From positions 312,001-372,000 of the forward strand of contig NC_087078.1 of NCBI RefSeq assembly GCF_026151205.1: a DNA stretch of 60,000 nt. Reading direction: 5' to 3'. Every line of letters begins with the position of its first letter. Positions within the stretch are counted from its first letter, which is position 1. Under the pieces are notes generated by a model. It searched no databases. It saw nothing but the letters and a program-made list of their open reading frames with translations, and had not been told where the DNA came from. A program made the translations under genes and the position numbers. The DNA comes from Bolinopsis microptera (taxonomy: Eukaryota > Ctenophora > Tentaculata > Lobata > Bolinopsidae). Shown one piece after another: positions 6,558-59,955 of this stretch.

Positions 6558-7218
6558 CTGCGGAGAACTAGTAGTATTACTCAGTTGTTTTACTATGGTA
6601 ACTAATTCTGTAACTATGGTAACTTACTCAGTTTCAGTCTTTATCTCTAAATAATGAGATGAAAAAGAAAACTTTCTGTGAAAATATAGCGAGGAGTATT
6701 ATAAAGTATACAATATGTCCTCACATTGTTCTCTCTTTCAAGAAAGTGATTCCTTGTTTTTAGCTTCTTGTTCAGTTCTATCATAACTTTCATCTCTTCT
6801 TTCTTTTTCTGTGGGTTAATATTTTATTAGGTCATCATGATAGTAACACTAGACAAATATATTCAATTCATAACTTAACTCAATTAAAAAACTTGAATAG
6901 TTTATTAGCCGTAATCCCTTTGAGGAATATCGACTGCAAAAAATAAAATTCATTTCATAATGTTGTTCAGTTTTCTCCGCTCTATCAGTCGAAACTAAGC
7001 TCCTTATAAATAAGGTACACGTTAGTATAATACATAGTACATGTACACGTTGTAATGTAGAAGAGAATACAAATTCCGGGCCTGCTCACTTGTAAGCAAA
7101 CCCTATAATAATATGGTTACCATAGTTACCAATAACCCTATAATAATCTAAATGAAGAAAACAGAGCTGTAAAACTCATTGCTGAGCAGGATAAGGTGTT
7201 CATCATTGTGACAATAAG

Positions 7219-17029: not shown

Positions 17030-18690
17030 ATACAAGACACAAGTTGCATACGGATACCCCTGTGCAAGACACAAGTTGCATACGGATACCCCTGTACAAG
17101 ACACACGTTGCATACGGATACCCCTGTACAAGACACAAGTTACATACGGATACCCCTGTACAAGACACAAGTTACATACGGATACCCCTGTGCAAGACAC
17201 AAGTTGCATACGGATACCCCTGTACAAGACACAAGTTGCATACGGATACCCCTGTACAAGACACAAGTTACATACGGATACCCCTGTGCTAGTACATACG
17301 GATACCCCTGTGCAAGACACAAGTTGCATACGGATACCCCTGTACAAGACACAAGTTGCATACGGATACCCCTGTGCAAGACACAAGTTACATACGGATA
17401 CCCCTGTACAAGACACAAGTTACATACGGATACCCCTGTGCAAGACACAAGTTGCATACGGATACCCCTGTGCAAGACACAAGTTGCATACGGATACCCC
17501 TGTACAAGACACAAGTTGCATACGGATACCCCTGTGCAAGACACAAGTTGCATACGGATACCCCTGTACAAGACACAAGTTGCATACGGATACCCCTGTG
17601 CAAGACACAAGTTGCAGACGGATACCCCTGTACAATACACAAGTTGCATACGGATACCCCTGTGCAAGACACAAGTTGCAGACGGATACCCCTGTACAAT
17701 ACACAAGTTGCATACGGATACCCCTGTGCAAGACACAAGTTGCATACGGATACCCCTGTACAATACACAAGTTACATACGGATACCCCTGTGCAAGACAC
17801 AAGTTGCATACGGATACCCCTGTGCAAGACACAAGTTGCATACGGATACCCCTGTGCAAGACACAAGTTGCATACGGATACCCCTGTGCAAGACACAAGT
17901 TGCATACGGATACCCCTGTGCAAGACACAAGTTGCATACGGATACCCCTGTACAAGACACAAGTTACATACGGATACCCCTGTGCAAGACACAAGTTGCA
18001 TACGGATACCCCTGTGCAAGACACAAGTTGCATACGGATACCCCTGTACAAGACACAAGTTGCATACGGATACCCCTGTGCAAGACACAAGTTGCATACG
18101 GATACCCCTGTACAAGACACAAGTTGCATACGGATACCCCTGTGCAAGACACAAGTTGCAGACGGATACCCCTGTACAATACACAAGTTGCATACGGATA
18201 CCCCTGTACAAGACACAAGTTACATACGGATACCCCTGTGCAAGACACAAGTTGCATACGGATACCCCTGTACAATACACAAGTTACATACGGATACCCC
18301 TGTACAAGACACAAGTTGCATACGGATACCCCTGTGCAAGACACAAGTTGCATACGGATACCCCTGTACAAGACACAAGTTGCATACGGATACCCCTGTA
18401 CAAGACACAAGTTACATACGGATACCCCTGTGCAAGACACAAGTTACATACGGATACCCCTGTGCAAGACACAAGTTACATACGGATACCCCTGTGCAAG
18501 ACACAAGTTACATACGGATACCCCTGTACAAGACACAAGTTGCATACGGATACCCCTGTACAAGACACAAGTTGCATACGGATACCCCTGTACAAGACAC
18601 AAGTTACATACGGATACCCCTGTACAAGACACAAGTTACATACGGATACCCCTGTACAAGACACAAGTTGCATACGGATACCCCTGTGTC
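17030..18690. repeat. 32-bp minisatellite, about 52 copies
   Basis: Unit contains CATACGGATACCCCTGTGCA followed by AGACACAAGTTG, with two-state positions (TGCAAG/TACAAG, TTGC/TTAC, one AATACAC variant). Because 32 is not a multiple of three and the unit lacks stops in most frames, long ORFs appear in several frames on both strands. These are by-products, not genes. Confidence 0.97.
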
Positions 18691-28736: not shown

Positions 28737-29666
28737 TCAATTTTTTATTTCATTAAGAGCACTACGTTTATTAAGTCCTCCAAAATCACTGAGGGTCATA
28801 AGCTGGTTTTGCCAAAATGATTCTCTTTCTTTAGCAACCCTACTTCTATCTTCTAAGGTTAAACATTTTATAAAATCTAGCTTTTCAAAAATAATAACCT
28901 CTATCTGATCGGATAACTCATTGTCAAACGTTTTTAAGGGCTCTTTGGTAAGATTATGGAACTGGTTATCGTTAAAATGACAAGAAATTTCACAACTCCT
29001 AACCGCTTTCCTAATATGTGATTTGTGGTTCTGCCATCTGGTCTTAAAATTGTTAACTGTGCTTCCTACTGAAGCACGTCTGCAGACTTTATCCCTTACT
29101 AGATAGCACACCCCTACTGTGTTGCAGTCTAGTTGTCCAATGATGTTAACAGTGTACCCCGAGTGGTAGCTCTGAGCTGTTTTTGATTCACAAATATACA
29201 TTCTACAGGCTTTACATCTGGAGTTACAATGATAACATCCCCCCTCTTCTATACTAGTAGGCAGAGCCACATTTTCAGTGTTAGAGTTTAAAGCTATAAC
29301 ATTACTATCTTCATGATACTTACGATCTTCTGAAAGTTTACTCGGAACTAAAGTTTCTTTGATAGTTTTATTACCACGATATGAAACAAATACTTTACTA
29401 GGCTGGATCACAGACTTTAAAAGGGGGTCTAGGCCAAGGATAAATTTATTCTTGTTAACTATTTTACCAATTGGAGGTAAGTTAGGGTCAAAATCACAAA
29501 CTAAAGGAAAACATCTTTCACTCTTCTTACTATTAGAGCTTGTAAGGTTTTTTGAAATCAGATCATCCCGTTTAAGTAACTCAACTTTCTCAAAGGATTT
29601 ATGGATAAGATCTTTATTGTAATTCCTATCTTCTAGATATTCACTAAATTCAATTTTACATTTCAA

Positions 29667-29710
<44 letters not shown>

Positions 29711-29723
29711 TTATCCGTGCCAT
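28737..29723 (-). CDS. Penelope-type GIY-YIG ORF, reverse transcriptase part absent
   Basis: 328 codons on the minus strand. The N-terminal KYIYIYIYIYIYMY is a translated (AT)n microsatellite, so the true start is lost. A Cys-rich region follows (CYHCNSRCKACRMY), then a GIY-YIG-like core (NTVGVCYLVRDKVCRRASVG, FKTRWQNHKSHI), and a C-terminal part with the expected glutamate (AKERESFWQNQL) and GGLNKRSALNEI. Penelope-like retroelements carry such a domain downstream of the reverse transcriptase, and here no transcriptase is seen upstream. The usual YVG is SVG, so nuclease activity is doubtful. It is probably a truncated and decaying copy. Confidence 0.7.
29675..29706. repeat. (AT)n microsatellite at the 5' border of the GIY-YIG ORF
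   Basis: About 16 TA units exactly where the retroelement-type coding sequence stops. A shorter run lies at 28450-28462 near the other end. Confidence 0.95.
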
Positions 29724-29938
29724 TTTACTGACACCACGGCATCAACTTTAACACGACTTTCCGCAAAAACCGTAAAAGATATACAACTGAAACTTTTTTG
29801 ACTGGGTCAAATGCTTGAATGGCCTTCAAATCAGCATGAAAAAATAAAAATTGGCCAAGAAATAGGAGTTTTAGAGCCCAAAATTTGGACCCCCAAGTGG
29901 TGTCAAAAACGCGAATTAAATAGGTAATGATTATTTAA

Positions 29939-32574
29939 GGGCAATTCCACCGTGACGGACACCACGATTTTGCTGTTTTTTAAAGTTCAAACGAATGTTG
30001 TACTCGAGATGTTGTTTATTTATCAGCTCCAACTGTTTATTAGTCCACATTTGACCTTTCTACAGGTTGTGTGAAAATTTCAGACCCCTACCATTATTAC
30101 TTTCTGAGATAGCACCCCTGTGACGGACGTGACGTAAATATGACACTTTTTTTGGGTGTCTACTCAGATGGTACCCAAATTTATCTCAAAAAGTTATCTA
30201 TTGTATCTAATTTGGAATTACAATGATAGAAGAAGGTTTAGGGATTTCTGAGATGCCATTTTCTTAGAGATTGCTCAATTTTTGTTTGCGTGGCACCATT
30301 TTCAAATTGTGACAGACGTGACTGTGACGGACACACGTTTTTTTTTCAATTTTTCCAAATCTTCCACTTGACACTTTTATCTTGTTCAGTGACATCTACT
30401 CTGTATTCATGCCAATTTTTAGGCCTCAAATACCCCCAAGAGGTCTGCAACAGCCAAAATCGTCCATTTTGGGCATACGCTAGGGTATCAGTCTAGGGGC
30501 ATCAATTATTTCTCTACTTGAACAAATTTATAACTCTGGTAAAACATTCATCACTGTTCAACGCATCATACTGTTGAGACCATCTCCTAAAAGTTTCATT
30601 ACTTTAGTGTTTAAAATGTGGAAGATATTGAATTTTTACTTCAAAAATATGCGAAAATAGGGTTAAGTCCAAATGATTGAGAACATCAGTAATAAGGTCC
30701 TTAACACAGCAAGATCACTGTCACGCAAAGTTCAGGCTCCTGATGACCAGACATCATTACATCTTCCAATCAGGGTCATATCTACTTATGGTAGTGATGA
30801 TGATCTGGTGTCTGTGACTAAGAAGTATGAAGAACACCTCTCAAGAACGAGGAGTTTCAGTGAAAGTGACACTGCTGAAACATCCCAAGAGACCTCCACA
30901 ACATCCGCCACGCCTAGGAAGACAATTTTCAGTTACACAAAGAAAACAGGGCCAAGCCTAAAATCTCGCCTCGTCAAATTGAAAGAACTTGCTTTAGGAG
31001 CTCAACATGGCCCAACCAGCAAATGCAATGTGCCAAGATGCAAATGTTGTGAACTTGTCAAAGGCACCCGTGAATTCAAAGTGAACGGCAAGAAGGTTAA
31101 AGCTTCCCCTGGAAACTGCCAGAGCTACAACATCATTTATCTATTCCAATGTAGTGTCTGTGGAAAGGCTTACGTCGGTCGCACAACTCGATCTCTACGG
31201 GTTAGGACTGGAGAACATAGGGTCAAATATTATAAACTTTTAAATGGTGATAAGGTAGATGAAACAAGTGATGAATATAGTTTGGGTTTACATTTGTTGG
31301 ATCATGGTTTTAGACAAAGGGAAGATTTTAACAAAATTTTTAATGTGTCAATTATTGATAATTCTAGTCCTAAAACTTTGGATGTCCGTGAACATAAATA
31401 TATTCAACTACTCAAGACTTTAAAACCTTTGGGAATTAACACTATAAATCCTTTTGGCCTTCCTTTACTCCTAACATCTTAATTTTAACTTTATTACCGT
31501 TTTAAGAGTGTTCAGATTTTTAAAGGAATTTTGGGTTTTACTAACTTTTTACAATTTCTAGGGCTTATGTCACTGAAGATGACGCCTTGCAACATGTTTG
31601 ACGATAGCCTGTAGATTGATAGTTTGATCTCAGTATTTACAACAATTCATCTAGTTTGATTGATTCAAAGGGAAACAAATTCCTCTGTAAGTCCATTTTT
31701 TGTGCCTTTTACCTCTGAAAAAGTTGTAAGCAAATAAAATGGCAAAAAATCAGTAAATTAAATTATTGAATTGCATATGATGTTATTTGATAGTCTAGTC
31801 AACATAGTCAACACAATCCAACCTTATTTGACTTCTATTTGTCTTGGTTTTAGTCAAAATAATGGAAATATGGATAAAAATGGCTAAAAGTGAGCCGTAT
31901 GCCCATATATGGGCATATACAAAATTATACATAACTCGGTCATTTTCTGTCCAATTTTTGATTTGACGACATAGTTTTGTTGAGGACGGCCTCAGCTTTA
32001 AGAAAAATGCCTTTAAAGTCTGTTTAAAGATTTTTTGGAGCATTTTCAAAAAAATGTGACGGACGCGACAAGTTGGGACCCCCCTTACAAAATTTTTTTC
32101 TTAAAAGATACAAGCCTGATAATTTCTACGGTACTCCCTTACCTTCAGAAGAGATAGGTTACAGTGGTTTTTTGAATATAAATAGCACTATGTGGCTCTG
32201 AAAAAACTTTTTTGCTTAATTTTGTGACGGACGTGACACCATCTTTGTGGAAATTTTTTAGAAAAAGTATTTGAGTCACGGTTTTGAAACTTTGCATAGC
32301 TCTCATTCTTATGCATATGCCTAAGTGTATGGAATTTCATAGAGAAATATTGCTGCATACCCAAACTATGGCCCTTTGAAAATTTGAACGATTTTTTTCA
32401 TTTCCGAGTAGTGTTCCTTTGAATGAGAAAAATCAAAAGTTAACGCAATATGAAACAAAAAACTTTTGTTGACTTGTAAGGTTAAGAGTCTAATGAACAT
32501 ATTTTAACCAAAATTAGGTGCCTATCTTAACATTTTTCATTTTCACCAAGTGGAACCTTACCGTGGAATTGCCC
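29939..32574 (+). mobile_element. 2.6-kb TTAA-flanked inverted-repeat element encoding a GIY-YIG protein
   Basis: Ends are GGGCAATTCCACCGTGA on the left and the complement of GGGCAATTCCACGGTAA on the right, with TTAA immediately outside both (29935-29938, 32575-32578). Subterminal motifs GTGACGGAC(G/A) recur at 29953, 30119, 30318, 32056 and 32223. The only substantial ORF is the 269-codon GIY-YIG gene. TTAA duplication is known for piggyBac and Kolobok transposons, but no DDE transposase is seen, and these ends are not ones I can assign to either. The element sits inside the loop of an inverted repeat belonging to the surrounding Helitron-like sequence. Confidence 0.75.
30673..31482 (+). CDS. 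GIY-YIG endonuclease of the TTAA element (269 aa, intact)
   Basis: Starts at ATG 30673 and stops at 31480-31482. Residues 1-110 are polar, Ser/Thr-rich and basic. A Cys cluster follows (SKCNVPRCKCCELVKGTREF), then the GIY-YIG fold: NIIYLFQC...CGKAYVG, the arginine in SLRVRTGEHR, and the catalytic-type glutamate in DVREHKYIQLLKTLKPLGIN. This layout (Cys cluster, IIY, YVG, R, E) matches the GIY-YIG domain at the C-terminus of Penelope-like elements, but here it forms its own ORF with no reverse transcriptase. All key residues are present, unlike the neighbour at 28737. It may be the element's own nuclease or a captured passenger. Confidence 0.85.
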   Translation: MIENISNKVLNTARSLSRKVQAPDDQTSLHLPIRVISTYGSDDDLVSVTKKYEEHLSRTRSFSESDTAETSQETSTTSATPRKTIFSYTKKTGPSLKSRLVKLKELALGAQHGPTSKCNVPRCKCCELVKGTREFKVNGKKVKASPGNCQSYNIIYLFQCSVCGKAYVGRTTRSLRVRTGEHRVKYYKLLNGDKVDETSDEYSLGLHLLDHGFRQREDFNKIFNVSIIDNSSPKTLDVREHKYIQLLKTLKPLGINTINPFGLPLLLTS

Positions 32575-37508: not shown

Positions 37509-39985
37509 ATGCGTGATGTTGTAGTGTTAGACACAGGAACACACTCTACAAAAGCCGGTTTCAGCGGTGAGAGTGTTCCCCGCCTTATCACGCCTACTGT
37601 AGTAGGACATGATTACACAGGAGACTCGGTAAGGTATGTGGGGAGCGAAGCGTTGAAGAGAAGGAGCAAGGTAAAGATAGTACAACCAGTCAGAAGAGGC
37701 AGAATACACAACTGGGACGACATTGAGCAGGTAAATCGGACTACATAGTGCATGGTCCGCATATGTATTTATACATAATATAATAACATAAAGTACCCTC
37801 CCTCACTGTAGACTATAACATAAAGTACCCTCCCTCACTGTAGACTATAACGTAAAGTACCCTCCCTCACTGTAGACTATAACACAAAGTACCCTCCCTC
37901 ACTGTAGACTATAACACAAAGTACCCTCCCTCACTGTAGACTATAACACAAAGTACCCTCCCTCACTGTAGACTATAACATAAAGTACCCTCCTTCAGTG
38001 TAGACTATAACATAAAGTACCAGCTCCCTCACTGTAGACTATAACACAAAGTACCCTCCCATACTGTAGACTATAACATAAAGTACCCTCCTTCAGTGTA
38101 GACTATAACATAAAGTACCCTCCCTCACTGTAGACTATAACATAAAGTACCTTCCCCTCACTGTAGACTATAACCTAAAGTACCCTCCCTCACTGTAGAC
38201 TATAACATAAAGTACCCTCACTCACTGTAGACTATAACATAAAGTACCCTCCTTCAGTGTAGACTATAACATAAAGTACCCTCCCTCACTGTAGAGTATA
38301 ACATAAAGTACCCTCCTATCAGTGCAGACTATAACATAAAGTACGCTCCCTCACTGTAGACTATAACATAAAGTACCCTCCCTCACTGTAGACTATAACA
38401 TAAAGTACCCTCCCTCACTGTAGACTATAACATAAAGTACCTTCCCCTCACTGTAGACTATAACATAATGTACCCTCCCTCACTGTAGACTATAACATAA
38501 AGTACCCTCACTCACTGTAGACTATAACATAAAGTACCCTCCTTCAGTGTAGACTATAACATAAAGTACCCTCCCTCACTGTAGAGTATAACATAAAGTA
38601 CCCTCCTATCAGTGCAGACTATAACATAAAGTACGCTCCCTCACTGTAGACTATAACATAAAGTACCAGCTCCCTCACTGTAGACTATAACATAAAGTAC
38701 CCTCCTTCAGTGTAGACTATAGCATAAAGTACCCTCCTATCAGGTGTGGCAACATACACTAGAGGTGGAGTTAAGTGTAGATCCTGAGCTACACCCAGTC
38801 CTCCTTACTGAGTCTACTCAGGAACCGGTTAGGCACAGGGAGAGGAAGACTGAGATCTTCTTCGAGACCCTGAGAGTTCCTCAGTTCTCCCTAGCAACCC
38901 AGTCTGTCCTGGCATTGCATGCGGAGGGGTGCACGTCGGGTGTTGTGGTGGATATTGGAGCTGGACATGCTGCCGTGGTTCCTGTGCTGGAGGGTGAGTG
39001 TCTATTACTAATAGTATTACTTCTACTGTTACTAATACCCTAGCTAGTTAGCTGGAGTATCAGGCTATCTCTTTCTCATTGTCAAACCAAAAATAGAGAC
39101 CTCCATGTCTAACGAAGTATCATATTTTCAGGTAAGCTGATTCCGTACGCTCTCGAGCCGATGTCAAGAAGTGGAGAGGATCTGACTAAACGACTTTTAG
39201 TCTCTCTGAAACAGTATGGATTTAGAAACGATCTCCACACCCACTGGGATATTGCTAATCACATTAAAGTTAGTTTAGTTATGAAAATGTAACCTCAGTT
39301 TAATCACGAGGGTTTCCTTAGTTATACGGTCGAGCCTGTGAAACGGAAATAAATTTCTTTGTCTCGTACATACTTTATTTTCGGTCGAACAGGGCGTCTA
39401 AATCAGGAAGTTTTAGGAAGAGTGATTTAAAATTCAAGCCCAGTTATCACTCCATTATCTCAGGAGACGATGAGTTGTTTAGATCCGCCCTGCTCCGGAC
39501 ACTACACCCTGCCTGACCTGTCAGAGATCACCCTGTCCCCCTCCCAACGGTCCCTCCCCGGCACCCTGCTGGAGGGTCCTGGTTACCATGGTAACACCCT
39601 GATGGAGGGTCCTGACTCAGTGCAATCCTCCTTCTCATCCGCTATATCCCGGCTTGACCAGGATATGAGCGCCATGTTGTGCCGCCATGTGGTGCTAGCG
39701 GGCGGAACTACAGACTGTCCCGGCTTCAGAGCGCACTTGTTACGGAGTCTGGAGGCGGCCGGCGCCATGGTAACAATGACTCAGGGGGCAGGGAGCAGAG
39801 CAAGTAGTGGGAGGTACAAATCCTGGGTTGGAGGGTCCGTGCTCGCCTCCCTCTCTACCTTCTCTAGAATGAGTGTGTTGAGAAGTGAGTATGAGGAGGC
39901 TGGGTCCGGCCTCATCAATAGACGGTGTAGAATGGAGGATGGGTCGGACGATATATACGGACTATATGGGTTCAGTGGTTCTTAG
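37509..39985 (+). CDS. Divergent actin-related protein (complete, four exons)
   Basis: Exons 37509-37730, 38744-38993, 39132-39268 and 39464-39985 join in phase to 376 aa, close to actin's usual 375. Recognisable actin blocks in order: MRDVVVLDTGTHSTKAGFSG (first phosphate loop), RRGRIHNWDDIEQVWQHTLE, HPVLLTES, FFETLRVPQ, VVVDIGAGHAAVVPVLEG (second phosphate loop, DxGxG kept), IPYALEPMSRSGEDLTKRLL, HIKETMSCL, VVLAGGTTDCPGF (adenosine motif) and YKSWVGGSVLASLSTFSRM. It ends with a non-actin tail, RMEDGSDDIYGLYGFSGS. Divergence is too great for conventional actin. It may be an orphan ARP, but I cannot assign a numbered Arp class. ATP binding looks possible. Intron 1 holds a 32-bp minisatellite that abuts the exon 2 acceptor. 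Confidence 0.9.
37774..38743. repeat. 32-bp minisatellite filling intron 1 of the actin-related gene
   Basis: About 30 units of GTAGACTATAACATAAAGTA followed by CCCTCCCTCACT, including a higher-order duplication (38110-38390 resembles 38400-38680). Two internal units contain CCTATCAGTG, like the real acceptor CCTATCAG|GTG at 38743, so the acceptor belongs to the array. Confidence 0.96.
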
Positions 39986-46890: not shown

Positions 46891-48177
46891 ACTCTTTTAG
46901 TGATCTGAGAGCAGGTTACTAGGTTACTAGCTGGTTAATAAGTTACTAGCAGGTTGCTTGGTAACTAGCTGGTAACTAAGTGATTTTGCTTAAGATATGT
47001 TTTGAAAAGATATAGTTTTGTCAGAGGTTTGATGATTTCGCTTCAGGCAATGATCTGCTAACATCGTTTGACAGTGAATGCGTTTCTGTCACACTCTTTA
47101 TAATTCAGCTTCTTATCCAGGGGTGTAACCATGGTTACACTACCTGTTCTTATCGTTACACTATATGCTGATTATTCTTCTTATTCTCTTATTCTCTTAC
47201 AAGTGGATTCATGATGATACGACAACTTAGTTTTATTTCTTGATGTGGCGTTTCTGAATTATTCGCTCCCCAAATGGGTTCTTTTCAAATTTTGAACCAT
47301 CACAAGAAATTATACAACAAAAATAAACATAAAATAATAGTTATCGAAATTGAACAAAACATTGAACTAAAATCGCATGCACATAAATTGAACCCATAGC
47401 ATATTAAGAGTAAGATTTCAGCGTTACCATGGTTACACAACATTTACATTAAAATTGGAACAGACTATACTAGTCTGAGAAACAAATTTCCTTTGATTGT
47501 CCAGTGTCCAACCCTTTTCGACATCTAAAACCTTATTATTTTATCTCAACACTAGAGAAAATTGATTCGATTATATAATAAGTGCTGATCCGGGAACTGA
47601 TAAACAAATCCCCCTGATTATATGATAAGTGCTGATCCGGGAAGTGATAAGCAAATCCCCCTCCAAAATAGGATTACATTTTAAGCCTATTCGATTATAT
47701 GATAAGTGCTGATCCGGGAAGTGATAAGCAAATCCCCCTCCAAAATAGGATTACATTTTAAGCCTATTCGATTATATGATAAGTGCTGATCCGGGAAGTG
47801 ATAAGCAAATCCCCCTCCAAAATAGGATTACATTTTAAGCCTATTCGATTATATGATAAGTGCTGATCCGGGAAGTGATAAGCAAATCCCCCTCCAAAAT
47901 AGGATTACATTTTAAGCCTATTCGATTATATGATAAGTGCTGATCCGGGAAGTGATAAGCAAATCCCCCTCCAAAATAGGATTACATTTTAAGCCTATTC
48001 GATTATATGATAAGTGCTGATCCGGGAACTGATAAACAAATCCCCCTCCAAAATAGGATTACATTTTAAGCATGATCTCAGATTTTCAAATAGCAGTTAT
48101 TTCCTACTCGATTAAACTGGAAGTAGTTCACTGTTCTTCAATTTTCTATTTAAATTCACCTATTAATCGTAGTAAAT
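46891..48177. other. Intergenic between convergent genes
   Basis: 3' ends of the PLAC8 gene (plus) and the GPCR gene (minus) face each other. It contains GTTACTAGCTGGTAAC repeats (46910-46982), isolated GTAACCATGGTTAC motifs (47127, 47423) and the 78-bp array listed next. No coding exon is seen. Confidence 0.55.
47555..48075. repeat. 78-bp minisatellite, six to seven copies
   Basis: Unit runs TTCGATTATATGATAAGTGC, then TGATCCGGGAAGTGATAAGC, then AAATCCCCCTCCAAAATAGG and ATTACATTTTAAGCCTA. The outermost copies share AACTGATAAACA in place of AAGTGATAAGCA, whereas inner copies are identical. This indicates expansion from the middle. Confidence 0.95.
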
Positions 48178-51100
48178 TTATAAAGGAGCACTTTTATAGT
48201 CCCTAGATTCGAAGTTAGTGTTGGAAACCCTGCTTTGTTCACTCCTGAGGGATTTAGCTTTACGTTTCCGCAGCTCGGGGTTCTTTATACACATAATGAT
48301 TTTAGGGAGGAATATCGTAGTGTTTACCATGAGAGAAAGTATTGCCACTATAACAGAAAGCGAGAACACCTGAAGGTTAGAGTGCTGTTAAGGACTTCTC
48401 AAGACACAATACTACTACTGCTACCTAGTAATGATGAATCATTAACTCTTTAACTGTTACCCAAACTGTTCTACATCAAACTGCTACAGAGCTATAAGTA
48501 TGGTGGTTACTAGACGGTAACTAGACGTAAAGCTGGTTACTAGGCAACTAGCTGGTAACTAGATTACTAAGTAGCTGGTTACTAAGTTACTAACTAGCTG
48601 GTAACTAGATTACTAACTATCTGGTTACTAAGTTACTAACTAGCTGGTTACTAATTTACTAACTAGCTGGTTGCTAAGTTACTCACCTGTTTCTCCCCGG
48701 GTATAAGTATCATAGCAGGAACGTAGCACAACACTAATGCTAGTGTTATCAGAGAACACATGAATATGTGTAGAGACTCCTGGATTGAGACATCGTTACT
48801 ATGGTAACTATGGTAACTATGGTAACTATGGTAACTATGGTAAGTATGGTAGCTATGGTAACTATGGTAACTATGGTAACTATGGTAACTATGGTAACTA
48901 TGGTAACTATGGTAAGTATGGTAACCATGGAGTGAGACATCGTTACTATGGTAACTATGGAGTGAGACATCGTTATCAGATTATGTCCAGATAAATTTGT
49001 TTTACTGAATAAGAATTAGTTAGATTAAATGGCATCAAATCAACTGGTTCACATTTCCACATTATTAAATCAAATGAATCTTCTTACCTTGTAATTTTCG
49101 GGCAGTTTTCTAGTTTTGAAGCCCATAACAGTAGCAATAAGAAGTATGGTGAGCACGTAGCCTATAAGAAAGTACACTAGGGTGAAGTGTGCAGGAGCAC
49201 AGGATGACGTTACTTTGTAGATGTTGTCATAGTAACCCTCCTCTGTTACACGCTTTGTGAACCTGGCAACAGGTAAATTATAAACCCCTCCGGGATAGAA
49301 TAAGATTCTGATAATCCCGGCTCCCGCTAAATAGATTCTGATAATCCCGGCTCCCGCTGTTAGTTTTTTCCCGCTGAATAAATAACCCCGGCACAGCTTT
49401 TATAATCCCGCCCCGCTAATTTGGCTCAACAAGATTTGTTTTGTTTTGATATTCCATGAGAATTTAAACCGCGTACTGTCACGTGTTTTGATGACGTGTA
49501 TCACGTGACTAACTACTACGACGCGCATTGGTAAAAAATGTCACGTGACCTATGGCTTAACGTAAGAACTATAAATACACTCGATCTACGTATCGGTCTA
49601 ATTGCAGGCGCTGGCAAAACTCCAGCACACTACATTACTTAAACTCTTACATTAATTGGACCAGTTCCAAAACTTGTCTCGACGGTTACATTTGATTTTG
49701 TCCGGTTCGGTTAATTTTGTCGAGTTTGATATAAGCCATGTATTATAGTCGTCTACTTTGATGAACTTCATGACACGATATTATTATTAGCTTTTATCGC
49801 TTGCCAGGCTTAACTCGACGCCCCTTATCGATATTCATATTCATTCAACGTTCTGACTGAGGAATAATGTTTAGATATAACGCCAATTTCAAAAGTCATA
49901 GTACCTTAGTTGTATTTATTTGGAAGTCCCCAATTCCATTTCATATTTTCCATAATGATCTCATATAGCTAGAATTAAGAGTAAAATGTCAAATTTGTTG
50001 GTCCTAGCACTAACCCGGAGGGGTTTATAACACATAACACCGGCACGCTTAAGTTATATTAAAATAACCCCTCGTGCTAAAGCACGTCGGGGTTATTTTC
50101 ATAATAATCCCTCGTGCTCCGCACTCGAAATTATTATAAATTTTTCCCGCGCGTCGCGGGAAAAATTGAAATATAATCCCTGCGCATGCCGGGGTTATGT
50201 GTGTTATAACGCTTTAACAGGTTATATAACAAACAGGTGATAACGAATAAAAAAGCTAATTATTGTTAGTTAAAATCAATGGCAATACCTTTTGATCCCT
50301 GTAAGCCTTACAAAATCAAAATATCAGGGAATAATAAGAAAATTTGGCAATTCTTATCCTGGTCCAGTGCAAGCCGGCCGCAGACTGACCCCGCTGTGCG
50401 CCACTGGGCCGGCCGCAGACTGACCCCGCTGTGCGCCATTGGGCCGGCGTACACTAAAGAGATATGCAACGTGTACCAAGTGACCGCTTTTCTTATAGAA
50501 ATCAAGAATGTATATTATATATATTTATTGTTAAATAATCTGAAGGTATACCTGTAGTTGGGTTCCAACAAGCCGTAGACAAGAGAGAATAAGACAGGTA
50601 ACATTACTGCAACCATGTGTACGTACACATAGTTCTTGGTCACATACCTGCACGTTACTATGGTAACTACACTGTTACTATGGTAACTACACTGTTACTA
50701 TGGTAACTACACTGTTACTATGGTAACTATGTTACTGCCTGCACGACACAGAATCACAACTTGTTGATTCAGGGCATGAATTATTGGGGTTTTAATTATT
50801 TATCTAACTATCTTACTAATAATAAAAACCAATTATCCTCATCACTATTTTCGCTACAGAAAGTGAATAACTCACTGAACAAGTGTCTTGTTAGAGACGG
50901 AGAAGTTGAAGACTACAAGTATTCGGAGTGTTCGTACGAAGAGAGGAGGGACTATCAGTACAATGAAGAGGTGGGAGAGCACCTGAACAGAGACGCAGAC
51001 TTCAGCTCCTGGAGGGGTTATTTAGTTTAGTCGTTACTATGGTAACTATGGTAACTATGGTAACTATGGTAACTATGGTAACTATGGTAACTATGGTAAC

Positions 51101-54100
51101 TATGGTAACTATGGTAACTATGGTAACTATGGAGTGAGACATCGTTACTATGGTAACTATGGTAACTATGGTAACTATGGTAACTATGGTAACTATGGTA
51201 ACTATGGTAACTATGGTAACTATGGAGTGAGACATCGTTACTATGGTAACTATGGTAACTATGGTAACTATAGTAACTATGGTAACTATGGTAACTATGG
51301 TAACTATGGTAACTATGGTAACTATGGTAACTATGGTAACTATGGTAACTATGGTAATTATGGTAACTATGGTAACTATGGTAACTATGGTAACTATGGT
51401 AACTATGGTAACTATGGGAGAGCACCTGAACAGAGACGAAGATTTCAGCTCCTAGAGGGGTTACTTAGTTTAGTTTGTTTTTGTGTTATTGTTTTGTAGA
51501 CAAACGAGCGAATACAGACTTCTGAGACGAACACTGTAACTTAATAAATTAATACTGGAATTGTACGAGATATTAATAATAATTTATTTAATTTGTAAAG
51601 TTCGTAGATTCCTCTACAGGGTCATCGAATATTTCGACCGCCCTTATTTTACAGTACACTACATTGTAGATGTTCTGAAGGAGTATCCTAAGATTCTTGA
51701 TCTTTTTGGCACAGGCACCCCTCCTCATTTAACCCTCAATCAAGTTTCCTATCATTCGGCTGAGTCGACCGAGGAGATCGAATAGATCTGATGAATCCTT
51801 AGCTACTCCCTAGACTGAGTGACACTGGGATTCGAACCCTGAACCTTCTGTACAGAAGGCGGAAGCTCTAACCACTAGGCCACCCAGCCGTTAGGATATA
51901 AATAGTTACCTGGTTTTGAAGCTAAGAGAGCAGCGTCCACTAGTCCACACAACATGCCAGGAAACATGAACGTAGCGAGATCTCTTCCCGAGGCAACTAC
52001 TACTATACTGTTCCACAAACACAAGTAAAGCGCTGAAAATACCCGCTGTTAATGTAAAGCATAGAATAGTTACACAATAGGTATACCACCCAACAGCGAA
52101 AGTGAAAGCGAAAGTACCGAACTAGTGAAAGCGAAAGTACCGAAAGTGAAAGTACCGAAAGTTACGATGACAATGATGAGGGAGATGAGCACGACAGCGA
52201 GCACAATACTTCCGTAGCGGTGGTTTATCAGATGTAGACTTGTAGTGTCACTTGAGCAACTAGTCTTGTCACTGTTCGACCAGCTACCTTCCCCACACTG
52301 CTCACACTTTGAAGCGTTACCAGTGTCAGAGTAACTATTACCTGTGGTTACTATGGTTACTATGGTTACTATGGGTACCTGGTTAGCAGGGTCAGAGTAA
52401 CTATTACCTATGGTTACTATGGTTACTATGGTTACCTTGAACCCTGCACCTTGAACCCTGCACCTACCATGACATTTGACGCAATCCCAACAGTTCTTCG
52501 CTAGTTGCAGAGGATCTTTAAACATATAGTGTCCCGGAGCACAGGATAAACTACACGATATCCTTTTATCCAAATGTTTAGATAGGAACCTGCAGGTACA
52601 ACAGTTACCATGACAACACCCTGATAAGATAACATAGTTACCATAACAACTATTATAAGAGATAACACAGTTGGATTTGGAGGGGAACTCGTTCCCAGCT
52701 TAGTTCTTGAGACCAACGTTGTGAATTGAAAACCAAAAACCTTATAGAATAACTTACAGTTGCCATGGTAACTGATTGATATACTTACAGTTGAAGGTAT
52801 TCTGAACTTTTAACGTTAGAACTATCTTCTCTCCACTCCACTGCTTCGTTTCTGTTGAAGATCAGACCCACATTAAGATAAGGAACTGATCTGGTCTGGT
52901 TCTATGGTAACTATGATAACTATGGTAACTATGGTAACTATGGTAACTATGGTAACTATGGTAACTATGGTAACTATTGTAACTATGGTAACTATGGTAA
53001 CTATGGTAACTATGGTAACTATGATTACCTGTTGAAGATCAGACCCACATTTAGATAAGGAACTGATCTGGTCTGGTTCTGACCAAACTGTAGCCCGGAC
53101 TGGAACAGACTTGACTTCTGTTTAAATAGTCTCACAAGTGAGTCACTAAGGTTACTTTGGAACGGTGCCAAACCATCAGCACGTGCTGCGTGTTCCCTCA
53201 GTAGGTCTGGATCTGAACTCTCCAGCGCCAGAAGTAGCGCTCTCAAAGCGTACATTATCCTGTGATTGTAAGAGGAATAAGGTCTGCCTGCATCCGCGTA
53301 TAACAACACTGTTACTATGGTTACTATGGTTACTACGGTTACTATGGTTACTACGGTTACTACGGTTACCTGTGATTGTAAGAGGAATAAGGTCTGCCTG
53401 CAGCCGCGTATAGCAACAACAAGTCTCTGAAGCAAGTGTTGTTGTGACAGTCACCCTGCCCCTCCACCTTCTCCAGCAGGAGAGGGTTAACCACCTCCTC
53501 CCCCTCCCACAAAGTAGCAGTGTTCTGGAAGTACTCCTGCAGCTCAACCTCAATATTATACGTCTGACAGGTCTTGATAACGTTAACACCCCTCTCACTC
53601 CACGTCTCATTGATACTCAGCACGCAGCCTGAACTACTGGTAATTAGCAGTGTGTTTGTAACTACACTGTTACTATGGTTACTACACTGTTACTATGGTT
53701 ACTACACTGCTACTATGGTTACTATGTTACCTAGTTTACCTGAACTACTGGTTATTAGCAGTGTGTTTGTAACTACACTGTTACTATGGTTACTACACTG
53801 TTACTATGGTTACTACACTGTTACTATGGTTACTATGTTACCTAGTTTACCTGAACTACTGGTAATTAGCAGTGTGTTTGTAACTACACTGTTACTATGG
53901 TTACTACACTGTTACTATGGTTACTACACTGTTACTATGGTTACTACACTGTTACTATGGTTACTACACTGTTACTATGGTTACTATGTTACCTAGTTTA
54001 CCTGAACTACTGGTAATTAGCAGTGTGTTTGTAACTACACTGTTACTATGGTTACTACATTGTTACTATGGTTACTACACTGTTACTATGGTTACTACAC

Positions 54101-55992
54101 TGTTACTATGTTACCTAGTTTACCTGAACTACTGGTTATAAGCAGTGTGTTTGTAACTACACTGTTACTATGGTTACTACACTGTTACTATGGTTACTAC
54201 ACTGTTAATATGGTTACTACACTGTTACTATGGTTACTATGTTACCTAGTTTACCTGAACTACTGGTAATTAGCAGTGTGTTTGCTGGCTCTTCTACTAA
54301 CTCAGATAGCAACCAGTTTATAGTGCCCTCTATCCTCCTGTAGGACGCTAGAGTCACTATCACTAGTGTTCTGTTGTAAAGCTTAGCTTCCTTCAAGTCC
54401 TCTAATACACCTGATAGAGAGACACTTAGTTAGTCGTTACTATGGTAACTATAAGAGACACTACCTTGTTACAGGGACAAAAGAAAATCGCGATTATTTT
54501 GCCCAAAAATCGCGATACCGCGATTTTTAACAGACTATACATAAAACTATACATAAAATTTGTCGCAAATAATGGGAAAAATCGCGATTCCGCACATGCA
54601 GCGATTTCCTTTTGACCCTGCCTTGTTATAATTATCTCCGGGTTATCAAGTTCAGAGCTGGGTTAGGCTGATAATACTTTAAATGATAATAATGATACAA
54701 GATCATCATCATCATTATCTACTGGCTTACTCCGCAAGCAACTAACCTGATAAAGTAGACTGATCAGTTATCTTGTCGGTAAGCAAAGTGCTACGTTTAA
54801 TATCTATCCCGTGGTTCTTCAGAGACTTTAACAGAATTGGGAGTTGGGGGCGAGCGTAGTCCGTATCATCATATACCACTGATACGATATCAGAGCCAAT
54901 ATTCTTCAGCACTCTGCAACAGATATTAGTCGTAACTATGGTTACTATGGTTACTATGGTTACTATCACCACTGATACTATATCAGAGCCAATATTCTTC
55001 AGCACTCTGCAACACTTATTAGTCGTTACTATGGTTACTATGGTTACAATGGTTACTATCACCACTGATACTATATCAGCGCCAATATTCTTCAGCACTC
55101 TGCAACACATATTATACTAATATAAAAGTCATTTTCTTATAAGGCAAATATTCAACAGTTACCATGAAAATAATTAATTTCGAAAACTAGCTTGGACTCC
55201 ATTATCCATATGAATACCCTTTCCTAATTTCAGTTGTACACTGTGTACTGTAAACATGTAAACATGTGTACTGTGTACCTGGGCAGGGTCGTGGTGGCTT
55301 GTCCGGTAGCAGTTGCAGTCATCGGTAGAACGTACTTCCAAGCCAAAGACTCCAACATGTAGTCACTCAGAATAGAGGACCCGTATACAAACGTGGGAAT
55401 TCTGAGATAATGGTAACTATGGTAACTATGGTAACTATGGTAACTATGGTAACTATGGTAACTATGGTTACCTCCAACATGTAGTCACTCAGAATAGAAT
55501 ACAAACGTGGGAATTCTGAGATAATGGTAACTATGGTAACTATGGTAACTATGGTAACTATGGTAACTATGGTTACCTCCAACATGTAGTCACTCAGAAT
55601 AGAGGACCCGTATACAAACGTGGGGATTCTGAGATGGAGCATGTTATTCTTGTGATGTAGTCAACTGTAACATAAACTACTAACTGTAAGTTCATCCTTC
55701 TAAACTATTATACTTAACGAGTAGAAGTATTTGGGCATTAGTGTTGACTTACTATTAAAGCTTCTCACCTGAAGGCTGATGACAGGGATTAGTGTTGGTA
55801 ACTATGGTAACTATAATGGTAACTATGGTTACCTGAAGGCAGATAACAGGGATGACATAGACATGACGTAGTAAGACGTTCTGGGTCCGACGAATGCTAT
55901 GATGTTGGGGTGTTGCTGTAAGACATATAACATGTCAATCAAACAGTGCTCCTTATCCGTCAGAAACATCACATAGCCTACATCCAGCTCAC
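48178..55992 (-). CDS. Family C GPCR (metabotropic glutamate/calcium-receptor-like), N-terminal exons missing
   Basis: Fifteen minus-strand exons join in phase (758 codons including the stop): 55992-55833, 55401-55279, 54913-54747, 54410-54255, 53628-53370, 53259-53029, 52851-52789, 52589-52468, 52341-52156, 52032-51910, 51008-50876, 50647-50552, 49262-49088, 48779-48687, 48369-48178. The first six exons form most of a Venus-flytrap ligand domain (IIAFVGPRTSYYVMSMSSLL, FRIPTFVYGSSILSD, SLAWKYVLPM, IVSVVYDDTDYARPQLP). Next comes the nine-cysteine domain (CSLSCAPGHY, CWDCVKC, CEQCGEGSWSNSDKTSC), then seven helices with family C landmarks: VVVASGRDL, FVRTLRI (cf. KTxRI), QYVTKNYVYV, GFKTRKLPENYK (cf. 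FKTRxLPExF), and a short polar tail. It should be a plasma-membrane receptor for a small ligand such as an amino acid or cation. Nearly every intron contains a GTAAC-type array flanked by exon duplications. Confidence 0.93.
48793..48990. repeat. GGTAACTATG array before GPCR exon 48779
   Basis: About 14 ten-base units, then GTAACCATGGAGTGAGACATCG and a second GTGAGACATCG copy. TTGAGACATCG at 48784-48794 and GTGAGACATCG at 48930 and 48961 are repeats of exon-adjacent sequence. Confidence 0.95.
49300..49362. repeat. Short tandem duplication AGATTCTGATAATCCCGGCT
   Basis: Two copies about 30 bases apart, each followed by CCCGCT, within a GPCR intron. Confidence 0.85.
50022..50212. repeat. Composite hairpin element in a GPCR intron
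   Basis: An outer inverted pair (TATAACACATAACACCGGC left, GCCGGGGTTATGTGTGTTAT right) encloses three further stem-loops: ATAACCCCTCGTGCT with AGCACGTCGGGGTTAT, ATAATCCCTCGTGC with GCACTCGAAATTAT, and AATTTTTCCCGCG with CGCGGGAAAAATT. This would form a multi-arm cruciform. It may be a MITE; no clear target duplication was found. Confidence 0.8.
50371..50447. repeat. GC-rich 38-bp duplication
   Basis: GCCGGCCGCAGACTGACCCC then GCTGTGCGCCACTGG occurs twice in tandem, in an otherwise AT-rich intron. Confidence 0.9.
50651..50745. repeat. GTTACTATGGTAACTACACT array at a GPCR acceptor
   Basis: Four to five units. The sequence CCTGCACG occurs on both sides (50647-50654 and 50736-50743), so the minus-strand acceptor CGTGCAG is duplicated around the array. 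Confidence 0.93.
50961..51472. repeat. 400-bp GGTAACTATG array between two copies of an intron-exon junction
   Basis: GGGAGAGCACCTGAACAGAG...TTAGTTTAGT lies at 50963-51029 and again, slightly changed, at 51417-51474. Between them are about 38 ten-base units interrupted by GAGTGAGACATCG at 51132 and 51226. On the minus strand the duplicated part is the acceptor (CCCTCCAG) and the first 39 bases of the exon that ends at 50876. Confidence 0.95.
51817..51885 (-). tRNA. tRNA-derived sequence (tRNA-like relic or SINE head)
   Basis: On the minus strand it starts GGGTGGC and ends GTCACTC, which pair over seven positions with G-U pairs. It contains a good A box (TGGCCTAGTGG) and a perfect B box (GGTTCGAATCC). 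The anticodon arm is aberrant (CTTCTGTACAGAAG closes on itself with a four-base loop) and the T stem has a mismatch, so a working tRNA is doubtful. It lies in a GPCR intron on the same strand. Confidence 0.4.
52327..52440. repeat. GGTTACTATG array with duplicated exon start
   Basis: CAGAGTAACTATTACC occurs at 52326-52341 and again at 52392-52407, each followed by a (TGGTTACTA) array. The first is the beginning of the GPCR exon ending at 52156; the second is a copy inside the intron. Confidence 0.92.
52855..53078. repeat. GGTAACTATG array between two 50-bp copies of an exon end
   Basis: TGTTGAAGATCAGACCCACA...GGTCTGGTTCT lies at 52853-52902 and 53030-53080 with two mismatches. The intervening 125 bases are about 12 ten-base units. 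On the minus strand the copies encode QTRSVPYLNVGLIFN. Confidence 0.96.
53261..53412. repeat. GGTTACTATG array between two 48-bp copies of an exon end
   Basis: TGTGATTGTAAGAGGAATAA...GCCTGCA(T/G)CCGCGTATA lies at 53261-53302 and 53371-53412. Between are seven units of GGTTACTA(T/C)G. Confidence 0.96.
53629..54290. repeat. Five compound repeats: exon end plus GTTACTATGGTTACTACACT array
   Basis: CCTGAACTACTGGTAATTAG then CAGTGTGTTTG occurs six times (53629, 53749, 53850, 54001, 54123 and the true exon copy at 54254). After each of the first five comes TAACTACACTGTTACTATGG-type sequence of variable unit number, ending ATGTTACCTAGTTTA. Confidence 0.96.
54472..54620. mobile_element. Second copy of the 149-bp hAT-type MITE
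   Basis: CAGGGACAAAAGAAAATCGC at one end and GACCCTG at the other, flanked by the perfect 8-bp duplication CCTTGTTA (54464-54471 and 54621-54628). It is inverted relative to the copy at 14492 and has the same length. It lies in a GPCR intron. Confidence 0.88.
54898..55112. repeat. Three copies of an exon start separated by GGTTACTATG arrays
   Basis: GCCAATATTCTTCAGCACTC then TGCAACA occurs at 54895, 54989 and 55081, each preceded by ACCACTGATAC(G/T)ATATCAG. Three to four array units separate them. On the minus strand each copy starts with an acceptor and encodes RVLKNIG(S/A)DIVSVV; only the copy at 54913 continues. Confidence 0.95.
55351..55627. repeat. Three copies of an exon start separated by GGTAACTATG arrays
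   Basis: CTCCAACATGTAGTCACTCA...GTGGGAATTCTGAGAT occurs at about 55349, 55472 and 55577. The middle copy lacks GGACCCGT. Arrays of five to six units separate them. Each copy contains an acceptor (ATCTCAG|A), and the upper two also have a donor-like GGAG|GTAACC. Confidence 0.95.
55767..55857. repeat. Duplicated exon end and donor around a short GTAACTATGG array
   Basis: CACCTGAAGGCTGATGACAG (55768) and TACCTGAAGGCAGATAACAG (55830) are diverged copies of the same minus-strand exon end with donors GTGAGAAG and GTAACCAT. Four array units lie between. Confidence 0.88.
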
Positions 55993-56805: not shown

Positions 56806-59800
56806 ATGACGGCAACTGGGCAAAGCCTCAGGGACCCCAGTGGCCTGATGAGAAGAGTGGTTGCTCGTCATAACAACAGAGTAATTAGTCAACAGATCGC
56901 TCATGTTGACACTGATTTCAGCAAGTCCAATCCTATCAACTACAGCAAACACTCAATGTACTTTGGAACCTGGAATGTTTTATCTTTAGTCAGCTAATCT
57001 TCACAGCTTTATCAACTCAGTCAGAACATTGATCACTACAGTCTTGATATTTTGGGTATTACTGAAACTCATATGCCAGGATCTGGAAGTACACTTTTGG
57101 ACAATGGTAGTCTACTTATTCATTCTGGTAGGGGAGATGGTATCAAAAGGCAAGGGGTTGGCCTATGTCTTTCCAAAAAGGTCAGGAACTCACTGATCTC
57201 TTATGTACCTACATCAGAGCGGGTCTTAACAGCTAGGTTACACGGCAAACACCTCAACATATCTGTTGTTGTAACCTACGCTCCGACTGACGGTGCTGAT
57301 GACGGAGAGAAAGATCGTTTTTACAACGTTTTATCAGACACGTTTGGTGAACTGCCCCGACATGATCTGAAACTGCTACTGGGTGACTTCAATGGAAAAG
57401 TTACTTCAAACAGATATGGATTCGAGGGAGTTATTGGTGGAGAATCTCTCCATAGTTCATCAAGCGACAATGGGACCAGGCTCATGGATTTCTGTGCAGC
57501 CAATCAACTTGTTATTGGTGGAACTCTGTTCCAGCATAGAGACATCCACAAGGGTACATGGCGGTCTCCCAACGGGTTAACTGTGAATCAAATAGATCAT
57601 ATTTGTATTAGTGGACGATTCCAACACTCGCTACTCGATGTTAAGGTATGTCGTGGGGCGGACATTGGTTCAGACCACTATCTTGTTCGTGGACGGCTGC
57701 AAATCAAACTGCAGTCGTTAGCTAAGATCACTGCTAAAAGGCACGATGTGCCTGCTATCGAACATTTGCGAAACTCGTCTAAGGTTCAAGAGTACAACGT
57801 GGCTCTTCAGAACCGTTTTGATTGTCTGGCTAATGAGGTCAACCTTGAGGACATGTGGGATAATTTCAAGCAGACAGTCACTGATGTCTCGATGGAAGTG
57901 CTTGGAAAGCGTCCCCGGAAGGTTAAAGAACAACACCTTTCGCAAACCTCTAAGAACTTGATAGAGCAACGGGGAATGTTCAAACGGAGGGATCCCACTT
58001 CAAACGTCAATAGATCAGCCTACTCTAAACTTAATAAATTAGTTAAAAAAAGTTGTAAAATTGACGACAACAACTGTGCTACTAAAATAGCGACTGATCT
58101 AGAGGAGGCTTCTAAGAAAGGCCAGCAAAGGGAAGTTTGGGATAAGATTAAGAAGATTTCTGGGAAAAAGAAGAAGAAAGTGGGTATGTCAGTTAGGGAT
58201 AAGGATGGTCATTTTATTACAGACCCGGACAGTCAGAAGGAAAGGTGGAAGGAGCACTTTACTGAGCTCTTAAATCCTCCACTATCGGATGCCAATCTTG
58301 ATGACCTCGATGGTGTGCCCTCACAACCGAGTTTTGACTACCTTTCTTGTTCTGATGGACCTCCTTCTAGAGATGAGATTAGTTATGCTCTAAAGAAACT
58401 GAAGAACTGCAAAAGTGCAGGGGTTGATGAGATAATTAATGAACAACTTAAGTATGGTGGAAGTGCTCTTGTTGGCCAACTAGAGCTACTGTTTAAAAAG
58501 GTATGGGAGGAAGAGGTGATCCCTGAGGATTGGCTTAAAGGTGTTATAGTGGTTATCGGAAAGAAGGGAGACACCTCATACTGCTGCAATAATAGGGGTA
58601 TAACTCTTAGGGCAACGTCTTCTAAGGTTCTTCAAATGGTTCTTCTTAAGAGGCTGGATGTTGGAATGGAGTGTCTTCTTAGGGAAAATCAGTGTGGGTT
58701 CAGACGGAACCGCTCATGTATTGATCAGATTTATTCCATCCGCACCATTATTCACAACTGCATTGAGTTTAACATTCCACTTTATGTTAATTTCATTGAT
58801 TTTAAGGCAGCGTTTGATTCCATCAGAAGAGAGTTTATTTGGTCAAGCATGAGACACTATGGACTTCCTGAGAAATATGTTAGAATCTTTCAGGCATTCT
58901 TCAACGGAACCATGAGTGCTGTCAGGGTTAATGGTGAAATGTCTGATTGGTTCTCTGTTAATTCGGGCACTGGACAGGGTGATATCCAGGGCCCTCCTGT
59001 ATTTAATTTCTGTCTGAACTTTGGAATCTTTTTGGCCGAGGTTCAGAAGGCAATCAGTCATGGTGCTGTACTGCAAAAGGAACTAAAGGGTGCAGATGAA
59101 AAAGTTATCATGGATAGTGACTACGCTGATGATCTGGCAGTGATGGACAATACTGAAGAAGGGCTGCAAGAGTCCACTGATCTTATAGCTTATTACACCT
59201 CTTATGCTGGGTTGAAGATCAACGCTAAAAAGACACAATGCATGGCGATCAGCAAGTGTGCGTCCCAGCGACCTTACACCGAAAGAGACAGTATAAAGCT
59301 AACAGTGGAGGGAGAACCTGTTGAACAGGTCAGCAACTTTGTTTATCTTGGTGCCAACATCAGTGGGGATGGTACCATTGACCGAGATCTTGACATCAGG
59401 ATCCAGCGTGCTAATGGTGCGTTCCATCAGCTTTGGAAGATATGGAACAGTCGAACTATAAGAACGCCCACCAAGATCTGTATCTACAAGGCTGCTGTTA
59501 TTACTATTCTGTTATATGGAGCTGAAGTGTGGAACACAACAAAGAAGCAGATGAAACGGTTTGAGGTCTTCCATCTGACCTCCCTGAGAAGAATCTTGAA
59601 GATAAAGTGGTTCTTCCATGTCTCCAATGAAGAAGTTCTCAGGCGTGCTGGAATTAAGTCTATCGAAACTTTCATCGGTGCGGCTAGACTAAGGTGGTAC
59701 GGACATGTTGTCAGAATGCCAGAGACGCGGTTCCCCAATTTCTTACTGGATTGGAAACCAAACTATGGAAATAGACTGAGAGGACGACCCCGCAAAGGCT

Positions 59801-59955
59801 GGATGGCCTGTGTACTCGAGGATGCGGCTGAATTTACAGGTGTCGATAACATCAGCAGAGATGCAGTAAAACAGTTGGCTCTAAAGCGAGTGGAATGGAG
59901 GAACATGTTACACCGTAGAAGAGATGTGTGTGATGCAGGCCACTCCAACGACTAG
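56806..59955 (+). pseudogene. LINE endonuclease-reverse transcriptase with one in-frame stop
   Basis: The frame is open from ATG 56806 to TAG 59955 except for TAA at 56995-56997. Downstream of the stop 967 codons are open from ATG 57052. Apurinic-type endonuclease motifs are FGTWNVLSL (before the stop), ITETHMPGSG, LLLGDFNGK and SDHYLV. Reverse-transcriptase motifs follow: CCNNRGITLR, QCGFRRNRSCIDQI, NFIDFKAAFDSI (first catalytic Asp), GTGQGDIQGPPVFNF, SDYADDLAVMD (catalytic pair) and GLKINAKKTQCM. The C-terminus has ARLRWYGHVVRMPETRF and GNRLRGRPRKGW, common in RTE-like elements. The stop separates the conserved Asn of the endonuclease start from the rest. The clade is inferred from motif style only; a Jockey- or Proto-type element is a less likely alternative. 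Confidence 0.85.

Follow-up and report, generated by a model that had tools for sequence, protein, structure and literature searches.

Exon copies around GTAAC-type arrays in the introns of a family C GPCR gene and at other loci of the ctenophore Bolinopsis microptera

Tandem arrays of short units containing GTAAC or GTTAC and flanked by direct copies of exon sequence are found in the genome of the ctenophore Bolinopsis microptera. These exon-flanked arrays are real, exceed what is expected by chance and are genome-wide in kind, but they do not occur at every array. In the window, i.e., the whole analyzed stretch of 60,000 nucleotides (C7:312001-372000 of the 264.65-Mb assembly, comprising 232 contigs), they occupy introns of a family C GPCR gene located on the minus strand, three of which consist almost completely of array and exon copy.

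The gene was identified by splicing its exons into a protein that matched a single database entry (P0001), the NCBI "G-protein coupled receptor family C group 6 member A-like [Bolinopsis microptera]" of 830 aa. Exons 2-17, at window positions 56411-48181, correspond to residues 34-830 of P0001 with 797 of 797 residues identical, and exon 1 is located beyond the window end at C7:372112-372225. Pfam assigned ANF_receptor and NCD3G to the receptor protein, the latter with 36.0 bits and thus below its cut-off of 38.9. The window therefore contains 15 introns between exons 2 and 17 (i2-i16), one more than the initial annotation had counted. All of them are of the GT-AG type, which is not independent evidence, since exons 2-11 were placed by hand and the remaining ones by a search restricted to GT or GC at the donor and AG at the acceptor; the splice agreement refers to an annotated protein. 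An assignment of 50873-51016 as a 3'UTR of the opposite strand was ruled out, as P0001 shows this region to be an exon of the receptor gene. In the surroundings of the gene, a LINE-type element with a 985-aa open frame carrying endonuclease and reverse transcriptase domains (56998-59955, plus strand) sits between exons 1 and 2 on the opposite strand, and a 77-bp unit in about six near-identical copies (47616-48071) follows immediately downstream.

GTAAC-type arrays make up at least 20% of the length of 11 of the 15 introns (i3, i4, i6-i10, i12, i13, i15, and i16), so that the earlier statement that almost every intron is affected proved correct in terms of arrays. It did not in terms of exon copies, since clear exon-edge copies (alignment score of at least 17) were detected in seven introns (i3, i4, i6, i7, i8, i10, and i12); an extra score-17 match in i13 is doubtful. 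Neither array nor exon-edge copy was found in i2, i5, i11, and i14, with array fractions of 0.00-0.07. The copies measure approximately 21-60 nt, compared with the 8-50 bases originally reported. The main repeat unit comprises 9 bp, accompanied by further GTAAC- or GTTAC-containing 8-, 15-, 20-, 21-, and 23-mers. The 10-base unit described before could not be retained: its tandem form (GGTAACTATGGGTAACTATG) yielded nine exact matches in 264.65 Mb, none of them inside the window.

The most complete cases are i6, i7, and i8 (all receptor features are on the minus strand; a slash marks the splice junction), with array and exon copy accounting for 96, 100, and 100% of their sequence. In intron i6 (626 bp, 53629-54254), five arrays of a 20-mer unit are combined with five copies of the terminal 30 nt of exon 6, not counting the exon end proper; the intron opens with CAG/GTAAAC and closes on the TTCAG of the last copy. 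Intron i7 (110 bp, 53260-53369) is composed of an array and a 49-nt copy of the exon 7 end (CACAG/GTAACC ... CACAG), and i8 (177 bp, 52852-53028) of an array and a 52-nt copy of the exon 8 end (AACAG/GTAATC ... AACAG). In all three, the preceding exon has its terminal 30, 49, and 52 nt, respectively, repeated as the final intron bases, stopping exactly at the 3' splice site and resulting in the layout ...X-AG/GTAA-array-X-AG/exon, with five units of this kind in i6. Array sequence supplies the donors GTAAAC, GTAACC, and GTAATC, and joining the array-edge GTAA to the AG at the copy end yields the NCBI protein sequence. Both elements proposed at the outset, donors from the array edge and acceptors from the copied exon, are thus present in the sequence. 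The rejoined exon sites read AG/GC, AG/GA, and AG/AA without any GT, and reading past the array donors without splicing leads immediately to a stop codon in i3, i7, and i8.

In other introns, the copies span an exon-intron boundary. At the donor side of i3 (55769-55832), an array starting with GTAACC directly after the exon 3 end is followed by a second exon-end copy of about 21 nt, behind which a GTGAGA looks like an older donor. At its acceptor side (55402-55635), two (GTTACCATA)n arrays, both opening with GTAACC after TTGGAG, are placed among three copies (52-63 nt) of the exon 4 acceptor plus exon start, the third being the annotated exon. Intron i4 (54914-55114) contains two arrays and two extra copies (~58-61 nt) of the exon 5 acceptor with the first 42 nt of this exon, and i10 (126 bp, 52342-52467) is 62% array and repeats the initial 26 nt of exon 11 once. 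A 380-bp array lies between two copies (~57-60 nt) of the exon 13 acceptor and exon start at the acceptor side of i12 (51009-51472). The acceptor side of i13 (50648-50735) carries a 20-mer array of the i6 type, and that of i15 (48780-48980) an array with repeated copies of the exon 16 acceptor flank. Intron i16 (48507-48686) has a 23-mer GTAAC array immediately after the donor without exon copy. A tRNA-like SINE sequence was recognized by eye inside i12 (51813-51890, minus strand), where ARAGORN found no tRNA.

The sequence of i12 also records a transfer between arrays. Its array includes two copies of a word stemming from the exon 16 acceptor at i15, the native form of which is located at 48781. 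Genome-wide, the variant word GAGTGAGACATCGTTACTATGG has three exact matches, of which a single one lies in i15 and the other two in i12; its base change is shared with the intronic i15 copy. Consequently, array DNA together with a captured flank moved by ~2.2 kb, most simply by copying from i15, the likely source, to i12, where the exon 13 duplication encloses the copied array. Sharing of units decreases with distance: among 28 array loci of the window, the mean 9-mer overlap was 0.223 at less than 5 kb versus 0.070 at 15 kb or more (P 5e-4), and among 17 loci of a genomic sample (see below) it was 0.268 within versus 0.014 between places (P 5e-4). Since a 20-mer common to i6 and i13 is found elsewhere at four other loci only and a 23-mer of the i16 type also appears on C1 and C13, the spread is not only local.

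To apply the refutation test of the initial annotation, the introns were compared with two paralogues rather than orthologues, L068 on C5 and L069 on C1, which share ~30-43% aa identity in the compared stretches and are free of GTWAC clusters over 6.0 and 7.5 kb. The comparison covered 10 introns, i2-i6 falling in the ligand-binding part, which is too diverged. Four of them (i11, i14, i15, and i16) occur at the same position and phase in the paralogues, judged at the acceptor for i14 and at the donor for i16; four (i9, i10, i12, and i13) are missing from both, with the stretch around i9 aligning weakly but forming one unbroken exon; and two are displaced, the nearest paralogue intron being 12 nt upstream in the same phase for i7 and 5 nt downstream in a different phase for i8. 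The paralogues have other introns near residues 478 and 633. Clear exon copies are present in four of the six unshared introns (i7, i8, i10, and i12) and in none of the four shared ones (Fisher P 0.07), and i15 and i16 hold arrays nonetheless. This pattern favors gain or movement of introns in this gene, gain here being not separable from loss in the paralogues. Given these short distances, i7 and i8 may represent shifted old introns; as the exon sequence of the window gene is unbroken where the paralogues have their introns, such a shift requires a precise loss in addition. Paralogues with a single exon, which are more distant (22-27% identity), turned out to be useless for polarizing introns.

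A second, error-rich copy of the gene was found on the unplaced contig C144 (L067), with 80% nucleotide identity over 6.3 kb, many gaps, many small indels, and one identical 42-aa exon. It is probably an unpolished allele left in the assembly. Its i7 reads X-array-X-array-X compared with X-array-X on C7; considering the error rate of this contig, the extra unit is only a hint of length polymorphism.

Whether flanking duplications exceed chance was evaluated on GTWAC clusters (three or more GTWAC) by flank-to-flank alignment against a null of mismatched pairs, both in the window and in an unbiased sample of 200 kb, consisting of 20 places of 10 kb on C1-C5. A score of at least 12 was reached by 19 of 38 clusters in the window (null 3/327) and by 14 of 25 in the sample (null 0/362), with cluster counts being not all independent because clusters include higher-order units of one locus. 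The sample provided 25 testable clusters for GTWAC versus two for the reversed motif; GTAAC itself occurred 582 times versus 389 times for its reverse, and GGTAACC 35 versus eight times. Tandem arrays called by TRF with a period of up to 25 were tested in two sets. GTWAC arrays scored at least 12 in 7/12 (null 6/350) and 10/18 (null 0/309) cases, other arrays in 5/87 (null 3/386) and 1/23 (null 1/357), giving 17/30 versus 6/110 in total and a nominal pooled Fisher P of 2e-9, with some arrays sharing a locus. An array-adjacent test with a wider motif set assigned scores of at least 10 to 41 of 129 clusters, some of them satellite units in L019, versus 22 of 1398 in the null. A test of single palindromes was dropped, as large satellites spoiled its random-position null (48/600 at score 10).

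Extension toward the whole genome was based on one array-edge pattern with 59 matches (zero in the reversed control), by which 34 clusters outside the window were retrieved, 30 of them testable (not L033, L034, L043, and L056). Seven of the 30 reached a score of 15 (null 0/1162) and nine a score of 12 (null 11/1162); the other 23 show no duplication at score 15, hence many arrays are without a detectable one. From the 16 array loci per 200 kb, located in eight of the 20 places, a rough total of 2 x 10^4 array loci would be expected genome-wide, with duplications limited to part of them. By eye, the succession exon end-array-exon end was recognized at L040 (score 11 in the flank test), L052, and L061 and likely at L033 and L034, and arrays serving as donor without a long copy at L029 and L035, with exon status at these pattern-chosen loci judged by frame and splice-like ends alone. 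At a locus of the random sample (L013:9550-9660), an 8-mer array is likewise enclosed by two copies of a likely exon end of 27-29 bp (...GACAG). Three pairs of places share the same array and the same flanks, with unit numbers differing in L033/L034 and L051/L060 and with L054/L055 looking alike. Immediately before the array edge, AG was found at 9 of 23 independent edges versus ~2 expected (P 6.5e-5), these edges being hand-picked from 52 matches after dropping array-internal variants and collapsing duplicate loci. Any edge having A in position -1 or G in position -3 falls outside the pattern. Removal of five doubtful edges (L036, L039, L043, L050, and one in L059) left AG at 9 of 18. The mirrored search returned 709 matches, mostly array-internal among the matches listed, and was unusable as a control for AG edges.

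Smaller inserts in the window show what appears to be the elementary structure. A palindromic GTAAC array between two copies of an acceptor-like sequence plus exon start (TGTATTTCAG/CTGACGG...) was found at 25478-25672 (plus strand), likely belonging to another gene; the copy comprises 48 bp as counted by eye, of which 32 bp were scored in the test. At 16374-16466 (plus strand), a 26-bp perfect duplication surrounds an insert with GTTAC/GTAAC; it immediately follows the stop codon of an ORF with an ShK domain, a position other than a splice site. A single GTTACCATGGTAA palindrome, i.e., an insert of 13 bp, is placed between 20-bp copies with one mismatch at 39562-39614 (plus strand), adding up to 33 bp in frame within an actin-family ORF. 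In addition, a 21-bp insert lies between perfect 14-bp copies at 7099-7147 (plus strand), and copies of 12-13 bp occur at a likely donor at 40978. Among 93 X-insert-X structures with an exact X of at least 12, the insert contained GTWAC in 19 cases (8% expected by chance) and other sequence in 74. Many of the latter sit in tandem satellites, thereby inflating this background count, and several look like plain duplications with filler. The 74 inserts lacking GTWAC indicate that duplication proceeds independently of the array, which is rather a favored filler.

The window hosts further repeats, namely a 42-bp unit in ~101 copies within a 1474-aa open frame (LEEQTQDLEVSFTV repeats; 7219-11643, minus strand) and large minisatellites at 13102-14424, 17031-18687, 20589-23928, and 37783-38737 with units of 22, 32, 58, and 32 bp, the one at 17031 being open in several frames. 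Two cysteine-rich open frames without Pfam match (28740-29741, minus strand; 30667-31482, plus strand) presumably resemble GIY-YIG parts of Penelope-like elements.

To account for these structures, we lean toward a process in which break repair duplicates ~10-60 bp, the gap is filled with array DNA, and silent or spliceable outcomes survive. In this process, a staggered break or paired nick would be filled in and joined, thereby duplicating the ~10-60 bp, and the gap between both copies would be filled from a GTAAC array, in many cases one close by. One such copying event, from i15 to i12, can be read from the sequence; the break as the duplicating step, the general use of arrays as templates, and the selection for splicing are what we infer. 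Arrays and array-plus-copy units would then expand in tandem, an expansion visible in the structure and placed here as a presumed later step. Whenever an AG inside an exon or at its border terminates the copied stretch, the first GTAA of the array (GTAACC, GTAAAC, or GTAATC) could act as donor and the last copy's AG as acceptor, so that the insert and extra copies would be spliced out with the protein unchanged, as sequence and annotation suggest. Selection would retain mostly silent outcomes, such as removable introns (i6-i8), donor copies (i3), acceptor copies (i3, i4, i10, and i12), and inserts in frame or in UTRs. The individual steps have counterparts in vertebrates, for which small tandem duplications at breaks by fill-in (PMC8355091) as well as the capture of nearby DNA including intron splice sites (PMC2671141) are described. 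The captured insertions were genomic DNA of at least 50 bp in that study; here, array DNA is combined with a target duplication.

The initial annotation had proposed a recurrent insertion and duplication process around a GTAAC-type palindromic unit that makes, moves, or enlarges introns. Exon copies, duplications beyond chance, and the word shared by i15 and i12 support it. Its term "introner", if taken to mean mobile elements having fixed ends, finds no support: length of duplication, length of array, and unit all vary, like duplications have unrelated fillers, and no array-linked coding element was seen in the loci read. A telomerase-type origin of the filler was considered, with no telomere-like array seen by eye in four 300-bp contig ends. 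The CTEP1/2 loop-anchor motif of Mnemiopsis is GC-rich (PMC12221973) and does not match.

Turnover of minisatellites at old splice sites, by which slippage and unequal exchange let introns slide without creating new ones, is a serious but unlikely alternative. Such duplications are known from the "mirages" of amphioxus (globin, Adh, troponin C, and PGBD5), portrayed as minisatellite-like and crossing 5' or 3' exon-intron boundaries (PMC3087553), of variable length, apparently harmless to splicing, and suggested to give rise to new introns (PMC3087553, PMC3902484). The tandem boundary-spanning duplicates in i3, i4, i10, and i12, likely also at 25478-25672, resemble them; the five extra copies in i6, the additional i7 unit on the error-rich contig C144, and the proximity of i7 and i8 to paralogue introns, for i7 even in phase, fit as well. 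In contrast, boundary copies in Bolinopsis are separated by a GTAAC array with its own donor, a spacer absent from the accessible portions of the mirage accounts, array and exon copy make up 96-100% of three introns, and this class of unit recurs across the genome of a ctenophore. Furthermore, sliding of i7 and i8, which contain nothing but array and exon copy, would again call for precise loss at the sites of the paralogue introns, which are unbroken in the window gene, and duplications exist away from splice sites (after the stop codon at 16374 and in frame within an exon at 39562). Pure sliding accounts well for the boundary copies, less readily for introns consisting of array and exon copy alone.

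A small palindromic GTTAC...GTAAC mobile element that generates a target-site duplication and offers its edge as donor is less likely, and we rate it as quite improbable. It would suit the minimal inserts of one or two palindromes between 12-26 bp duplications, the recurrence of the unit across the genome, and the AG before 9 of 23 edges. Introners as described by Gozashti et al. 2022 (PMC9860276; their Fig. 2C class) also share with our loci that the insert contributes the 5' splice site and the duplicated target the 3' splice site with unchanged mRNA, as predicted for our gene, and that insert sequence is common to many sites, here at least 20% of 11 of 15 introns and numerous other loci. 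However, duplications of ~10 to ~60 bp contrast with 3-9 bp in characterized introner families, inserts range from 13 to ~380 bp with several unit types, neighboring sequence was captured, and like structures have unrelated fillers. The introner survey of 3,325 genomes removed low-complexity families according to the same source, so that an array class such as this one would probably have escaped it and could be overlooked elsewhere. An assembly artifact or decayed gene is barely credible: the error-rich gene copy on C144 would suggest it, but a complete 830-aa annotated protein in one frame with 16 exons, same-kind arrays assembled on C144, and similar structures at other loci oppose it.

For the structures described here, the nearest known systems are the amphioxus mirages together with repair-born introns, e.g., of Daphnia. 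Daphnia introns attributed to staggered-break repair show an exon-end copy at the far end of the intron with filler in between, as in our gene, with intron/adjacent-exon repeats of 4-12 bp compared with 30-52 bp in i6-i8 (PMC4202315); the Bolinopsis filler is one recurring class with a ready donor. In tandem genomic duplication of AGGT (PMC3443670), an exon copy also provides the 3' splice site; here, the donor of i6-i8 comes from the filler and the rejoined sites lack GT. Short copies alone mean little, because one study reports such direct repeats close to the borders of each of the 213 introns it examined (PMC11782384). Within the open literature, covering few subscription papers and preprints, no title or abstract dealt with such arrays or minisatellite intron gain in ctenophores. 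In a discarded tandem-repeat scaffold of Mnemiopsis leidyi, the unit TACATGGAGTTACAATGT also holds GTTAC (PMC11797021).

According to the established view (e.g., PMC3443670), the origin of most new introns is unreadable from their sequence. In i6-i8, nearly the whole content can be traced to array and exon copy, and every splice site is accounted for. The proposed route also offers a testable explanation of intron sliding, as for i7 at 12 nt from the paralogue position. Tentatively, as a proposal we hold to be less than probable, ctenophore genomes may carry self-spreading "spliceable minisatellites", i.e., GTAAC arrays that would serve recurrently as templates for repair; every such use would duplicate the target and provide it with a ready donor, so that introns would be created and moved genome-wide without a transposase. 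With chromosome-level genomes also existing for Mnemiopsis and Hormiphora (PMC11797021), repair-born introns would become directly testable in a ctenophore lineage.
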